A DNA stretch of 15,200 nt from Nitrospirae bacterium CG2_30_53_67 (GTDB taxonomy: Bacteria > CG2-30-53-67). The stretch's first letter is position 1. Each line of letters begins with the position of its first letter. The stretch lies in NCBI GenBank assembly GCA_001873285.1, contig MNYV01000095.1, positions 1-15,200 on the forward strand, read 5' to 3'. This document shows, piece by piece, positions 5,261 through 15,200 of the stretch. The translations under genes and the position numbers were made by a program. The notes under the pieces were generated by a model. It searched no databases. It was given only the letters and a program-made list of their open reading frames with translations, and was not told the origin of the DNA.

Positions 5261-6322
5261 ATGAAGAACAACAAATTTCTTGAAATGGTCGTTATTCTCA
5301 TTGTTGTCTTGGCATTTACACCGTTTATTCAGGGCGGATGCGGGGGTGGAGGAGGCGGGGGCGGCGGGAACCCTGCTTCGGAAAATACGTCCACCACACC
5401 GGAAAACACAAAAACACTGGCAACCCTGAATGCATCGAGTTCTTCTCATACCACGGATATACTTCAGACCGGTTCTTTAATCAACGATGCGATTGAATCA
5501 TTCATATCAGAAGAGTCTGTTGGAGCATCTTCTTCTGATAATAGCCAGCCTCCATTATTCAAGAATGTTCAGAGAATTCTAAACAAGATGCACGCCGAGT
5601 CCCGGGGAGGTAAAGTCAATGCCCTTGGATCTCAGCAGCCGGATACGCCCCCGGAATCCTGCGAGGGGGGTGGAACCGTGGACCTTTCCATGAACTGGGA
5701 CGGACCGAATGGAGATATAGACATCTCAGATTGCTCCCAAATAAACAATCTGCATATGACCATCACCATGAACAACTGCGTGGAGTCCGGGGTTGATCTC
5801 AATGGGACCATGGACGTCACGGTTCCGGGCAGTTCCTGCGCAGAACCCTCGTCAATGAGCATGACCCTGAAATTCAATGGCCATGACTCTGTAGAGAATT
5901 ATACGGCCGATTTTGATGCCACCATGAATGTGACAGACATTGTCTGGGATCAGACAGCCATAGCGATCCAAAGCATGAAGGTAAATGTAACCGGAACCAT
6001 CTCCGGAGACGATGCGGGTACTCCCTTCAGTGAAACCTACGACAATTTCATGATCGGATTCGGAGATACCGGCTCACAATATCAAATCTCAATGGATGGC
6101 TTTGTCCAGACGACCTGCATGGACGGTTGGGTTCAGGTCACTACACAGGAACCGGTACTCTATCCATATGACTTCTCCTGCCCTACCGGAGGACAGGTCA
6201 GCCTCCATGGAAACGGAGATGCAGTCATATCCATTCACTCTGATTCCAGTATCGACATCACTGTGAATGGTACGACCACGCCTTATATTTCATGCCAGGA
6301 TGTCCCGGCCTGCAACGGGTAA
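5261..6322 (+). CDS. Predicted secreted lipoprotein of unknown function, with a poly-glycine linker and paired cysteines
   Basis: I do not recognise this 353-residue protein. Residues 1-26 form a signal peptide: a KNNK start, a hydrophobic run at 9-23, then IQGG before Cys27. That makes Cys27 the likely lipidated residue, although Gln at -3 is not a standard lipobox residue. Nine glycines follow Cys27 directly, then a Ser/Thr/Asn-rich linker to about residue 65. The mature part is rich in alternating strand-like segments (MTITMNNC, MDVTVPG, ISIHSDSSIDITVNG), which suggests a beta-sandwich or beta-barrel fold. Eight further cysteines (134, 158, 173, 193, 286, 307, 345, 351) could form up to four disulfides in the periplasm or outside the cell. 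It has its own promoter (5173-5201), an upstream palindrome and a terminator, so it is a monocistronic, possibly regulated gene. The ribosome site GGAGGGG sits 2-4 nt before the ATG. Confidence 0.85.
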   Translation: MKNNKFLEMVVILIVVLAFTPFIQGGCGGGGGGGGGNPASENTSTTPENTKTLATLNASSSSHTTDILQTGSLINDAIESFISEESVGASSSDNSQPPLFKNVQRILNKMHAESRGGKVNALGSQQPDTPPESCEGGGTVDLSMNWDGPNGDIDISDCSQINNLHMTITMNNCVESGVDLNGTMDVTVPGSSCAEPSSMSMTLKFNGHDSVENYTADFDATMNVTDIVWDQTAIAIQSMKVNVTGTISGDDAGTPFSETYDNFMIGFGDTGSQYQISMDGFVQTTCMDGWVQVTTQEPVLYPYDFSCPTGGQVSLHGNGDAVISIHSDSSIDITVNGTTTPYISCQDVPACNG

Positions 6323-6400: not shown

Positions 6401-7003
6401 TTACCACTCCGCAAGGCTTTGAATGGAGGCTCGGTAGGGCCCCAACACTGAAGCGTCTTTGAAATAGACCTTTTTCATATAATCCAGCACCCAGGAATAA
6501 TATTCAAAACGGCTGGAGAGGTCCTGAAAGATTTCCGCTCCCTGCTTTTCGGCCAGACGGTCGAATTCCGAGACCGTGGAGTAGGAGTATTTTCCCTGGT
6601 CCATATAATATTTGAGTGAGGAACCCTTGACTACGAAATCCCGGTAAATCCCGGTCATGAAGAGTGTATAATCACCGATATGCTGCCTGATCTCCCGCTC
6701 TCTGAACGGACTGAACCGGTCGCTCTGCAGATCCATGGCGGAATTCGCCTCCGTGAGGAAGTCTACCATATACTCTACCCTCTCGCCCAGGGCATTCTTG
6801 ATCTTATAGAGCCGGTCCGTAGAGGCAAAACGGGCAAGCAGGCTTGAGACATAATCCGCAACCGGCATATTATCAATGAAAAGCTGTTGAAAACAAAGGA
6901 GGGTCAATTTCTGGAAAAATCTTTTCAAACCAGGCGCCCGGTCATCTCTTTCCATATCCTTTTCTCCATGAAAGAAATTATCTTGCTTACACTTTATATT
7001 CAT
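6401..7003 (-). CDS. Conserved-looking orphan protein, function unknown
   Basis: I do not recognise a family. The 200-residue product lacks a signal peptide and membrane segments. It looks all-helical, with aromatic-rich stretches (CFQQLFIDNM, YTLFMTGIYRDFVV, FEYYSWVLDYMKKVYF). Two starts are plausible. The ATG at 7003 has AGAAGG 9 nt upstream and matches a candidate promoter at 7037-7065. The ATG at 6955 (residue 17) has GGAG 8 nt upstream, and the first 16 codons are AT-rich and low in complexity, so the shorter form (184 aa) may be the true one. The gene is divergent from bioA by 78 bp and ends at a strong shared terminator, so it is monocistronic. It is cytoplasmic as far as can be seen, and the neighbours give no clear hint of its role. 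Confidence 0.75.
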   Translation of the reverse strand: MNIKCKQDNFFHGEKDMERDDRAPGLKRFFQKLTLLCFQQLFIDNMPVADYVSSLLARFASTDRLYKIKNALGERVEYMVDFLTEANSAMDLQSDRFSPFREREIRQHIGDYTLFMTGIYRDFVVKGSSLKYYMDQGKYSYSTVSEFDRLAEKQGAEIFQDLSSRFEYYSWVLDYMKKVYFKDASVLGPYRASIQSLAEW

Positions 7004-8620: not shown

Positions 8621-8845
8621 ATGGCTGCCCCGAATAGAATTCTGAAAGAGGCATTGAATCTAAAACCTGCAGAAAAAGCGGAACTAATCGACAAACTGAT
8701 TTATAGCCTGGACAAACCTGATGCAGAGATTGACGAATTATGGGTAAAGGAGGCTGAGAACCGGATTGATGCTTATGAACGTGGAGAGATTAAGGTTGTT
8801 GCATTGGAAAAAATTCTTGAAAAATATAAGCAGGATCCGAAATGA
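8621..8845 (+). CDS. Type II antitoxin, addiction module component family (TIGR02574 / PF09720)
   Basis: The 74-residue acidic protein should bind and neutralise the toxin encoded directly downstream, and repress their shared promoter. Family features include the N-terminal helix pattern ALNLKPAEKAELIDKLIYSLD, followed by DAEIDELWVKEAENRIDAYERGEIKVVALEKILEK, in which the W..EAE.R..AY..GE.K core is the hallmark of this antitoxin group. GGAG lies 6 nt before the ATG. Its last codon and stop overlap the toxin start (ATGA at 8842-8845), so the two are translationally coupled. The pair is visibly richer in A+T than bioA and glpK on either side, which fits horizontal acquisition. Confidence 0.88.
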   Translation: MAAPNRILKEALNLKPAEKAELIDKLIYSLDKPDAEIDELWVKEAENRIDAYERGEIKVVALEKILEKYKQDPK

Positions 8846-9132
8846 GGATCCGATTCTTGGAAATAGCACAGATTGAACTGTATGAAGCCATCGAATATTA
8901 CAACTATGAAGTATCCGGACTTGGTGAAGCTTTTCTGAGCGAAGTATTGAACGTTCTTGATAGAATTGGAAAATATCCCGAAGCATGGCCGTCTTGCTCA
9001 AAGCGAACCAGAAGGACTCAGACTCGGCGCTTCCCTTATGGAATCATGTATCAAATTCGGAAGGATGAAATTTTAATAGTTGCCATTGCACATCTTCATA
9101 GAAAACCGGACTATTGGAAAGACCGAATATAA
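8842..9132 (+). CDS. Type II toxin of the RelE/ParE superfamily
   Basis: The 96-residue basic protein has the usual ParE/RelE order: an N-terminal strand MRIRFLEIAQIELYEAIEYY, the helical GLGEAFLSEVLNVLDRIGKYPEAWPS segment, and the RRFPYGIMYQIRKDEILIVAIAHLHRKPDYWKDRI core that is highly typical of toxins paired with addiction-module-component antitoxins. Such toxins inhibit either gyrase (ParE) or translation by cleaving mRNA on the ribosome (RelE); the sequence alone does not settle which. It overlaps the antitoxin by 4 bp and is at full family length with no damage, so the pair is probably functional. It ends 34 bp from the convergent phosphodiesterase gene. Confidence 0.9.
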   Translation: MRIRFLEIAQIELYEAIEYYNYEVSGLGEAFLSEVLNVLDRIGKYPEAWPSCSKRTRRTQTRRFPYGIMYQIRKDEILIVAIAHLHRKPDYWKDRI

Positions 9133-11381: not shown

Positions 11382-12557
11382 TTATTCAGCCCTCCCCTGC
11401 AGGTAGGCGAGATCCCTGCTCTGGCTCGCCTTGGTTCCGATCCTGAGCACCCTGAACCGCCGGGTCTCAGACTGCCTATAGTAGATCCGGCCGGATGATC
11501 CGAAACCCAGCTCAAAGGCATCGCACTTCTCAACCCCGGAGATTTTCCTCCTGATCTTAAGACCGGGATCTCCGTCGTTCAACCGTTTCAGCATCTCCTC
11601 GGCCTGTAGTTTTATTTTCTCATCCCCCAGACGGACAAGATCTTCCACGGCCTTCCGGTCCATTTCCAGATTCCGATAAAGTTTTGCAAAACGTTCGGAC
11701 AGGGCCTGTTCCTCCTTGACGGACCTGGATTTCTGCGCTTCATGTCTGACCGCTTTCTCTTCCAGTGTGTCTATCTTTTCCTTCTGCTCCTCGGTCTGCT
11801 CGATGGTCACAAGGAGCTCTTCTTCCAGGGAAGCCTTCTCCTTTTCCAGCCGTTCCACTTCCTGTATCCACACGTCCTCCTGGGTCTTGATATCGGAGAG
11901 TCTGCTGCGGGCCTCCTGAAGTTCATGCTCCACCTGATCGATCACCGTACGCTTTTCGGTTTCGAACCTTTCCTCCATATCGTGTATCCTCTTTTCCTCA
12001 AGCAGGGAGGATCGCTGGTAATAGAGATATAGAAAAACCACCGTCGACAGAATATAGGCCAGCAGAATGCCGCTCCCCAGCCATGAGGTCACCGGGATTT
12101 TTACCGAAACCACGATATTCATCCCCTGGATGTATTCCGAGTATTTCTCCAGGTAGTCTTCCACCTTTCCGGCGGCCTGGTTCGCGATATATCCATTTTC
12201 ATCAAAAAGAGAACCGGGTTTCTTTTCCGGAACCTTGCCTTTGATAAAGGGTGAAAGGAGGTGTTCATAATATGGATAGATGACGTTCTCCTGGGCATCG
12301 GTGATACGCACCCCGGTCTCCGCTCCCAGACGGGCAGCCCGACTTTTGGCAAGTATGGAAACAACGTTCTTATTCACTTCATCATAAAGGCTGACCTTCC
12401 CCTGAAGAAGCTCAAAATCGTTCTGAATGAGCTGCTGATGTAACACACGAGTCAGATCATTCCTGAACCAGAGCTGCAGATACGGCAGCGTCAGGACATA
12501 GAGGATGGAGGGCGCAAAAATACTGACGTAGAGAATCTTGAAGGAAAAACTTTTCAT
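11382..12557 (-). CDS. Two-TM membrane protein with coiled coil and a RelE/ParE-like C-terminal segment
   Basis: I do not recognise the whole protein. Of its 391 residues, 7-25 and 158-180 are membrane segments. The ~127 residues between them should lie outside the cytoplasmic membrane, giving the topology of a sensor receptor. Residues 183-320 are a long charged heptad region rich in Glu, Lys and Leu, evidently a cytoplasmic coiled coil. The last ~65 residues ([20 protein letters not shown], then GRIYYRQ, then [18 protein letters not shown]) resemble the C-terminal half of RelE/ParE/YafQ-type toxins: a strand with an EL-R-like step, the RIYY strand, an LxIGxK strand and a final RDLAYL helix. 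The likeness is by eye only. The gene lies 17 bp after rsmE and 5 bp before glpK, so it is in their operon. The start is the ATG at 12557, with GGAAAGTGAG upstream as a modest ribosome site. Confidence 0.85.
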
Positions 12558-12574: not shown

Positions 12575-13345
12575 TCAGCGGCCTATGGACACCGGTTTGC
12601 CGGCGGGATCGGCTGCGCCCCACTCATACCGAACCAGGGCGGCTGAAAGGATCCCCGCCGTCTCAGAGCGCAGGATCAGGCCCCCCAGCGAGACCGGTAT
12701 AAAACCGTGTTCATTCAGCAGACCGGCCTCCTCCCTTGAGATTCCTCCCTCAGGCCCGACCAGGAGGGCGATGCTTCCCGGTTCAGGGCAGGCATTTCGT
12801 ACTTTACGAAGGGTTCTGACCTTCTCGTTCTCATCGAAGAATATTTTAAGAGGGACGTGATCTACCTGATTCACGGCTTCATGGAGCATCACCGGATCTT
12901 TGATCCGGGGAAAATCCGGCCGGCCGCACTGTCTGGAGGCTCCTTGTGCAATACGCTGCCATCGCTTAAGCCAGTGGCCGGTTCTTTCCGGATCGAGAAT
13001 CCGGACGGACCGTTCCATGTAGATGGGAATGATGTCATGGACTCCTATCTCAGCGGCCTTTTGTACCAGCCACTCCATCCTTTTTCCTTTGGGAACGGAC
13101 TGCAAGAGGGTGATCCTAAGAGAGCATGAATCCGGGATGGAAGATGTTCCCAGGATGGCGCATGAAACCTCACCCTCGGGGAACCCTGAGATCTTTACCC
13201 TGTAAACAAGGCCGGAACCGTCTGAAACCTGCAAGGTATCCCCGATTCTCATACGCAGCACATCACGGATATGCCTGCCGTTCTCCCTGTCCAACATCAG
13301 AGTCTCTTTAAAAACCCGGTCCGGGCTGATAAAAAAATATCTCAA
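12575..13345 (-). CDS. rsmE: 16S rRNA (uracil1498-N3)-methyltransferase
   Basis: RsmE methylates N3 of U1498 in 16S rRNA of the assembled 30S subunit using S-adenosylmethionine, with a SPOUT trefoil-knot fold. The N-terminal RYFFISPDR and HIRDVLRMRIGDTLQVSDG parts form the PUA-like domain. Then come QSVPKGKRMEWLVQKAAEIGV, ERSV and RWQRIAQGASRQCGR, and the knot motifs LLVGPEGGIS and SLGGLILRSETA. The length of 256 residues is normal. I chose the TTG at 13345, which has GGGAG 6 nt upstream and gives the usual MRxFF start; the adjacent TTG at 13348 leaves only 3 nt. It heads the rsmE-membrane protein-glpK-GDPD cluster. In Firmicutes and some others rsmE follows dnaJ and prmA; here prmA is absent and a hairpin cluster sits between dnaJ and rsmE. 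Confidence 0.95.
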   Translation of the reverse strand: MRYFFISPDRVFKETLMLDRENGRHIRDVLRMRIGDTLQVSDGSGLVYRVKISGFPEGEVSCAILGTSSIPDSCSLRITLLQSVPKGKRMEWLVQKAAEIGVHDIIPIYMERSVRILDPERTGHWLKRWQRIAQGASRQCGRPDFPRIKDPVMLHEAVNQVDHVPLKIFFDENEKVRTLRKVRNACPEPGSIALLVGPEGGISREEAGLLNEHGFIPVSLGGLILRSETAGILSAALVRYEWGAADPAGKPVSIGR

Positions 13346-13433
13346 CAAAAACTCCCAAATAGCTGATCGTGTGTTATCACTGGAAGATGAAACCTGAGCA
13401 GAAAAAAGAGCCTGCCTTACACATTGAGTGTAT

Positions 13434-13685: not shown

Positions 13686-14798
13686 TCACCCGAAGATCCC
13701 CTTGACTTTTTCAAAAAAACTCCGGCTGATGGGATGCACATCCTCACCGCTGATCCGAGTAAACTCTTCAAGCAGTTCTCTCTGCCTGGGGTTGAGATGA
13801 GTGGGCGTCTCCACCTGAATCCTAACAAGCTGATCCCCGACGCTGTAGCCGTGCAGGCTCGGAAACCCTTTGCCCCTCAGAATGATCACGCTTCCGCTTT
13901 GGGTCCCCGGCTTGACCTCGATCATCTCCGGACCGTGGAGCGTAGGGACCCTGATCCGGTCGCCCAACGCCGCCTGGCTGAAACTGATGGGAAACTCACA
14001 GAGGATGTTGTTCCCTTCACGTGCAAAGAACTCGTGATCCTTGACCCGGATGACCACATACAGGTCGCCCCTCTGGCCGTTGTTCATTCCGGCCTCGCCT
14101 TCTCCGCTCAGCCGAAGCCTTGTGCCGGTCTCCACACCGGGAGGGATCTTCACGCTGATCGTCCGAACCGCCTGGACCTGTCCTTTCCCTCCGCACGTCT
14201 TGCAGGGGTGGGTAATGACCACACCTTCGCCGTTGCAATGACTGCAGGGCCGGCTGATGCTGAAGAAACCCTGCTGGTAACGCACCTGACCGAGCCCCCT
14301 GCACGTCGGGCATCGTTCAGGGCTCCGGCCCTTCTCAGTCCGGCGGCCACGACACTCACCGCAGGTCTCCATCCTCGGGATCTCCACCTCCGTCTGAAGG
14401 CCCATGGCCGCATTTTCAAAACTGATCTCCAAATTGTAGCGCAGGTCCGAGCCTCTCTGAGGCCTTCTCTGCCTGGCCTCCGCGCTTCCCCCGAAAAAAT
14501 CGTTGAAAATGTCTCCGAAGATATCCCCTAAACCGCCGAACCCTTCCGTCCGGAAACCGGCAAAACCGTTTGAACCCATGGTATGCCCAAACTGATCGTA
14601 CGTCGCGCGCTTCTGGGGGTCTGAAAGAACTTCATAGGCCTCATTGACTTCTTTGAAGCGGCCTTCGGCTTCCTTGTCATCCGGGTTCTTGTCCGGATGA
14701 TACCTCATGGCAAGACGGCGGTACGCCTTTTTGATCTCTGCATCTGAAGCGTTTTGGTGGATCTCCAGAATGTCATAATAATCTCTTTTTCTATCCAT
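13686..14798 (-). CDS. dnaJ: Chaperone protein DnaJ (Hsp40)
   Basis: DnaJ delivers unfolded clients to DnaK and stimulates its ATPase. The J domain fills residues 6-70 with HPD at 34-36. A Gly/Phe-rich region follows (71-105), containing repeated [14 protein letters not shown]. The zinc-binding domain has four Cys pairs: C146/C149, C163/C166, C185/C188 and C199/C202. The last three read CxxCxGxG, but the first reads CGECRGRR and loses its final glycine. Two substrate-binding beta domains and a dimerisation tail complete a normal 370-residue type I DnaJ. It starts 6 bp after the dnaK stop and is surely co-transcribed with dnaK. The ribosome site is weak, so coupling to dnaK translation is likely. 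The last codons overlap a 14-bp repeat that recurs at 13481-13494. Confidence 0.97.
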
Positions 14799-14804
14799 AG
14801 ATGA

Positions 14805-15200
14805 TCATTCTTCAAGATTGACCTTGTCCTCATCAGGATCGATCTCATAGACCGCGCCTTCGGAGGATTGAGGATCTTTATAAATCTGCTCGGCAAACTT
14901 GTAGGACCTCTTCTTCAGTTCGTCTTTGGCTTTTTGAATCTCGGCAGCATCGGACCCCTGTAAGGCGCGCCGCGCCGACTTCAGGGCTTCCTCAATGAAG
15001 GCAAGGTCCGAAGGATCCATTTTAGACCGATATTCCCTGATGGTCTTCTCCGTATTGTAGACCAGCGCATCGCAGGCGTTCCTCTCATCGGCCAGTTCTT
15101 TCAGTTTGTGGTCTTCCTGTCTGTGCGATTCCGAATCCTGGATCATCTTTTGAATCTCTTCCTCAGAAAGCCCGCTCGATGCCGTGATCTTAATGGACTG
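14805..15200 (-). CDS. dnaK: Chaperone protein DnaK (Hsp70), C-terminal part only
   Basis: The frame is open from the right edge to TGA at 14807-14805 and encodes the last 131 residues. The first visible residues, QSIKITASSGLSEEEIQKM, are the end of the DnaK substrate-binding beta domain and the start of the helical lid. The lid continues through NACDALVYNTEKTIREY, DLAFIEEALKSARRALQGSD and KDELKKRSYKFAEQIYK, matching the usual lid helices, and an acidic tail (DPDEDKVNLEE) closes it. The ATPase domain and promoter lie outside the window. Any hrcA or grpE would also be upstream, beyond the edge. The tail lacks the common EEVK-like ending, which is not unusual outside enterics. Confidence 0.95.
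   Translation of the reverse strand, partial: QSIKITASSGLSEEEIQKMIQDSESHRQEDHKLKELADERNACDALVYNTEKTIREYRSKMDPSDLAFIEEALKSARRALQGSDAAEIQKAKDELKKRSYKFAEQIYKDPQSSEGAVYEIDPDEDKVNLEE

Follow-up and report, generated by a model that had tools for sequence, protein, structure and literature searches.

Toxins with the RelE fold are usually free proteins that are restrained by antitoxins. The locus studied here raises the question of what such a fold is doing at the end of a membrane protein that has no antitoxin beside it. The gene lies at 11382..12557 on the minus strand of the window (i.e. the complete stretch of 15,200 nucleotides that was analysed), and encodes a protein of 391 amino acids comprising a membrane segment, an external domain, a second membrane segment, a coiled coil and a RelE-fold domain. 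The first-pass annotation of this DNA gave the correct coordinates without a strand; this was found to be minus, and the plus strand contains stops when translated over the same interval.

Hydropathy places the membrane segments at residues 4-27 (12477..12548, on the minus strand, as for all the features of this gene given below) and 156-180 (12018..12092). About 128 residues lie between them, in good agreement with the ~127-residue domain that had been proposed to be flanked by two membrane segments. The external domain (residues 31-155; 12093..12467) is presumed to be an extracytoplasmic sensor, and a Pfam search with this region gave no family match. From the hydropathy, and from the cytoplasmic location of the known relatives of the C-terminal domain, we infer that the region between the membrane segments is extracytoplasmic and that the C-terminus is cytoplasmic. 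The coiled coil (residues 181-290; 11688..12017) had been estimated at ~140 residues, and a single-sequence AlphaFold2 model of the full-length protein has one long helix running from 159 to 309. The confidence of that model is good across most of the coil and low elsewhere. Weak profile matches to the coil are to coiled-coil families only, and we attribute SMC-like, JetC and similar weak matches from Pfam, NCBIfam and PADLOC to this part of the protein.

The RelE/ParE-fold domain occupies residues 293-390 (11388..11681), as defined by profiles and a structure model. It includes a GRIYY motif at residues 356-360 (11478..11492) and the motif K376-x-x-Q379-x-x-D382 (11412..11432). An internal start that would yield a free toxin was considered; the candidate initiators M299 and M322 are not conserved among the homologues, and this was therefore rejected.

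The likeness to RelE and ParE had been read by eye. It is now supported by separate profile libraries, by profile-profile alignment and by the structure model, but the segment that had been proposed (~325-388) is too short, as the domain extends over ~293-390. The RelE/ParE toxin family TIGR02683 (upstrm_HI1419) matches the C-terminus of the window protein, taken in isolation, with E=5.1e-4, and matches all five close homologues with a best E of 1.9e-4. The corresponding score of 20.9 bits is far under the curated cut-off of 62.85 bits, so that the domain is a relative of this family and not a member of it. PHROG 3445, annotated as a toxin, also matches all five (best E 6.6e-5), and Pfam ParE_toxin weakly matches two of the five (0.068). 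We aligned a profile of the six-member family with one built from 14 aligned TIGR02683 sequences taken from other loci, using hhalign, and obtained a score of 33.4 with a probability of 75%. Reversed profiles scored 14.4-14.6 and 30 column-shuffled profiles scored no higher than 17.5, so the likeness exceeds that expected by chance. The most distant homologue (in genome G064), taken alone, matches neither TIGR02683 nor PHROG 3445; it is tied in via the family, with 49% identity in the RelE-like domain. Searches of the PDB sequences returned no toxin with the family profile, nor with a toxin-rich profile. Judged on sequence, the C-terminal domain is a member of the RelE/ParE (BECR-fold) superfamily, and by profiles the free toxins of TIGR02683 appear to be its nearest relatives.

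Two other occurrences of TIGR02683 were observed. A free toxin of the family (E=1.5e-39) is encoded on contig C27 of the same genome (L031 1186-1785, minus strand), followed by a gene of 100 amino acids that resembles an HTH antitoxin by eye. In genome G015 a TIGR02683 domain ends an open frame of 577 residues (L044 43-1773) that has no membrane segments by eye.

The structure of residues 293-391 was modelled with AlphaFold2 using an alignment of 18 TIGR02683 toxins from viral contigs together with one close homologue. With the toxins in the alignment the model has a pLDDT of 82.6 and a pTM of 0.76, and the order of its elements is beta-alpha-alpha-beta-beta-beta-alpha. On comparison with the PDB by Foldseek the first 21 matches all belong to the RelE superfamily (RelE, HigB, YoeB and ParE toxins, and Cami1). 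VIA-align gave Z = 11.0 with M. jannaschii RelE, 10.6 with YafQ, 9.6 with Cami1 and, over 93 residues, 9.5 with ribosome-bound E. coli RelE; for RelE, YafQ, YoeB and HigB structures taken together Z is 8-11. The comparison with the RelE and YafQ folds that had been suggested earlier thus came out in favour of a RelE fold. Note that since toxins were included in the alignment, the model is consistent with the sequence evidence and is not an independent test of the fold. In the single-sequence model the C-terminus, which is of low confidence, has three strands followed by a helix, in the RelE order.

Positions that are the same in at least 90% of the 18 TIGR02683 toxins were compared with the window protein. 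Those that it keeps are L310, D312, G329, G332, G341, G353, R357, Y359, L371, G374, K376, Q379 and D382, of which R357, Y359, K376, Q379 and D382 are invariant across all 18 toxins. It departs from the toxins at the helix-1 Trp, the strand-2 Arg, the hairpin and other positions. In E. coli RelE, R61, R81 and Y87 are important for cleavage, while the K52A and K54A substitutions have little effect (PMC2807027). R357 aligns with R61 in both of the alignments made, and K376 lies within one place of R81; the counterpart of Y87 is not tyrosine. From these residues, ribonuclease activity of the RelE-like domain is plausible.

The gene is present in five of the eight genomes examined from its small phylum, i.e. 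in five of six genomes of one family and neither of the two of the other. The homologues in the four other genomes are 58-84% identical to the window protein. A wide sample of 386 genomes provided one further true homologue, that of G064, which belongs to a different phylum. It is 32% identical overall and has the same domain layout with other gene neighbours; the next large gene upstream (L021 2100-3908, minus strand) is one that we take by eye to be RqcH/NFACT-like, of ribosome quality control. A search for proteins of the same architecture thus gives six genomes in two phyla that share the layout, and membrane anchoring behind a sensor-shaped region is common to the relatives. An exact-word scan of a large genome collection found only a copy corresponding to that of G001. 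We found no homologue on plasmids, none of the whole protein or of its C-terminal family on viral contigs, and none in further phyla picked by DnaK similarity, the last being searches made without a positive control. A weak match in G304 (to a release-factor-like reading frame), and others in G093, G158, G034 and G051, were judged to be due to chance. In G004 the gene has been reduced to a short fragment after rsmE (L007 1501-1638), a natural deletion that indicates that the gene can be lost and is dispensable.

Conservation is unevenly distributed along the protein. Between G000 and G001 dN/dS is 0.04 in the first membrane segment (which is 97% identical to that of G001), 0.05 in the RelE-like domain, 0.13 in the coil and 0.18 in the external domain. 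The best-conserved parts are therefore the first membrane segment and the RelE-like domain, and the least conserved is the external domain. Such a gradient would be expected of a sensor whose input varies while its output stays fixed.

The gene is preceded by rsmE (12575..13348, minus strand; Pfam PF04452), encoding a 16S rRNA methyltransferase, at a distance of 17 nt, and is followed after 5 nt by glpK. These spacings agree with the tight operon proposed in the first-pass annotation; however, rsmE is the only conserved neighbour. In all five genomes of the phylum that have the gene it is found directly after rsmE, beside dnaK heat-shock genes, whereas the downstream gene varies, being glpK in G000 and G002 and different genes elsewhere. 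In the window dnaJ (13686..14798, minus strand) lies upstream of rsmE, and the end of dnaK (14805-15146) beyond it. The upstream order in G001, G002, G003 and G005 is hrcA, dnaK, dnaJ, rsmE and then the membrane-protein gene, with grpE visible in G001 and G003, where the list of reading frames resolves it. A CIRCE-like element precedes hrcA in G001, where 0.01 such matches are expected by chance; searches of the window and of L010 gave none, and the start of the operon lies beyond this contig. Co-transcription with dnaJ is putative; 337 nt lie between dnaJ and rsmE in the window. The location beside the dnaK genes is suggestive of a link with protein-folding stress.

No antitoxin-like small gene was found beside the gene in any locus read, the neighbours being rsmE and glpK or unrelated genes, so the earlier remark that an adjacent antitoxin is lacking holds for the relatives also. 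Elsewhere in the window there is an ordinary toxin-antitoxin pair (8621-9132, plus strand), in which an Unstab_antitox gene (PF09720, E=2e-15) overlaps that of a free ParE_toxin (PF05016, E=1.3e-6). Two further genes of the window have relatives in the same genomes. One (6401-7003, minus strand) encodes a protein of 200 residues with no Pfam match and has relatives in the same region of G005 and G003; the other (5261-6322, plus strand) encodes a secreted, glycine-rich protein of 353 residues with weak Pfam matches only, and probable relatives close by in G003 and G005.

We tentatively favor a reading in which the protein is a membrane signal transducer, with an output that is a RelE-fold domain related to the TIGR02683 toxins and controlled in cis. 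The external domain would sense envelope or environmental stress, and the coiled coil would dimerise and restrain the RelE-like domain. Upon a signal this domain may act on mRNA at the ribosome, by cleavage or by a block to translation, and inhibition in cis would replace a separate antitoxin. The relationship of fold, the retention of R357, Y359, K376, Q379 and D382, the layout, the lack of an antitoxin, the conservation, the heat-shock position and the precedent of Cami1 all argue for such a transducer. The lack of tyrosine at the position of Y87, the missing strand-2 Arg, the loss of the gene in G004 and the 337-nt gap between dnaJ and rsmE argue against it. A more specific form, in which a transmembrane stress sensor acts through the coiled coil on a cytoplasmic RelE-type ribonuclease, with no antitoxin and set with the dnaK genes in an IRE1-like design, is doubtful.

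A possibility that we regard as nearly as likely as the cis-controlled transducer is that the RelE fold has been reused without catalysis, and binds ribosomes, rRNA, mRNA or a partner so as to tether or sense translation at the membrane. The strand-2 Arg, the helix-1 Trp and the hairpin, where the protein differs from the toxins, would fit with this, as would stable vertical inheritance in one chromosomal place with no antitoxin to restrain a toxin, and the action of the neighbouring rsmE product on 16S rRNA. By contrast, the presence of R357, K376, Q379 and D382 in all six homologues, one of which is 32% identical, goes beyond the need of a pure scaffold.

It is improbable that the protein is simply the toxin of a conventional toxin-antitoxin system, bound to the membrane and paired with an antitoxin gene at another site in the genome. 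The closest relatives are indeed toxins, and the putative antitoxin gene that accompanies the free TIGR02683 toxin of contig C27 might cross-react, but no antitoxin-like gene adjoins the gene in any relative, its position is a fixed, housekeeping one, and the searches of plasmids and viral contigs found nothing. It is very improbable indeed that the likeness to RelE is due to chance or convergence and that the C-terminal domain has a different fold. The gap between 20.9 bits and the 62.85-bit cut-off, the lack of a TIGR02683 match for the G064 homologue alone and the use of toxin sequences in modelling the structure might be taken to favor this. Yet in both NCBIfam and PHROGs each of the five close homologues matches a toxin family, the reversed and shuffled profiles reach about half the score, and the low-confidence single-sequence model already has the strand-strand-strand-helix order.

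We found no description of this arrangement (a membrane sensor, a coiled coil and a C-terminal RelE fold, with no antitoxin) in the literature surveyed. A vertically kept, chromosomal membrane protein with a RelE domain suggests that the fold has been recruited into ordinary stress signalling, with control within a single polypeptide. If so, it would provide a direct path from an envelope signal to the control of translation, and a means to ask how RelE folds stay silent without antitoxins.

In design the protein may be compared with RNase Y, which has a membrane anchor, a coiled coil and a ribonuclease, and with IRE1, a stress sensor that spans the membrane and has a cytoplasmic ribonuclease. 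The likeness is one of design only; the catalytic domains are unrelated, and the activity of the protein studied here is putative. The TIGR02683 toxins are homologous by profile and share the invariant Arg, Tyr, Lys, Gln and Asp, but they are small, free and encoded beside an antitoxin, whereas here the domain is part of a membrane protein, scores below the cut-off and has no antitoxin. Cami1, a RelE nuclease that is dimeric, controlled by a ligand and without an antitoxin (PMC11229360), combines an N-terminal sensing domain and a C-terminal RelE domain in one chain, as is proposed here. However, Cami1 is described as binding cA4 through a CARF domain and as belonging to type III CRISPR loci, while the window protein has two membrane segments, a coiled coil and heat-shock neighbours. 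CARF was not matched among its Pfam hits, the N-terminal fold being modelled at low confidence. Membrane toxins with the BECR fold are known in the ToxM-ToxR systems (Gerdes 2025, PMC11980606), where the protein that carries the RelE fold likewise has an external domain and a transmembrane segment. In ToxM the toxin fold is N-terminal, there is one transmembrane domain, and a gene for an RHH or HTH antitoxin (toxR) lies upstream (PMC11980606); the window protein has the reverse order, with two transmembrane segments and a coiled coil, and no small gene of a DNA-binding type accompanies it. As both signal-controlled RelE (Cami1) and membrane toxins of the RelE fold (ToxM) are already known, the novelty lies in the combination. 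The survey of Gerdes (2025) omitted many multidomain BECR proteins, where the antitoxin was unrecognisable or the members too few (PMC11980606), and the present family is one of this kind, with a setting that is conserved and testable.
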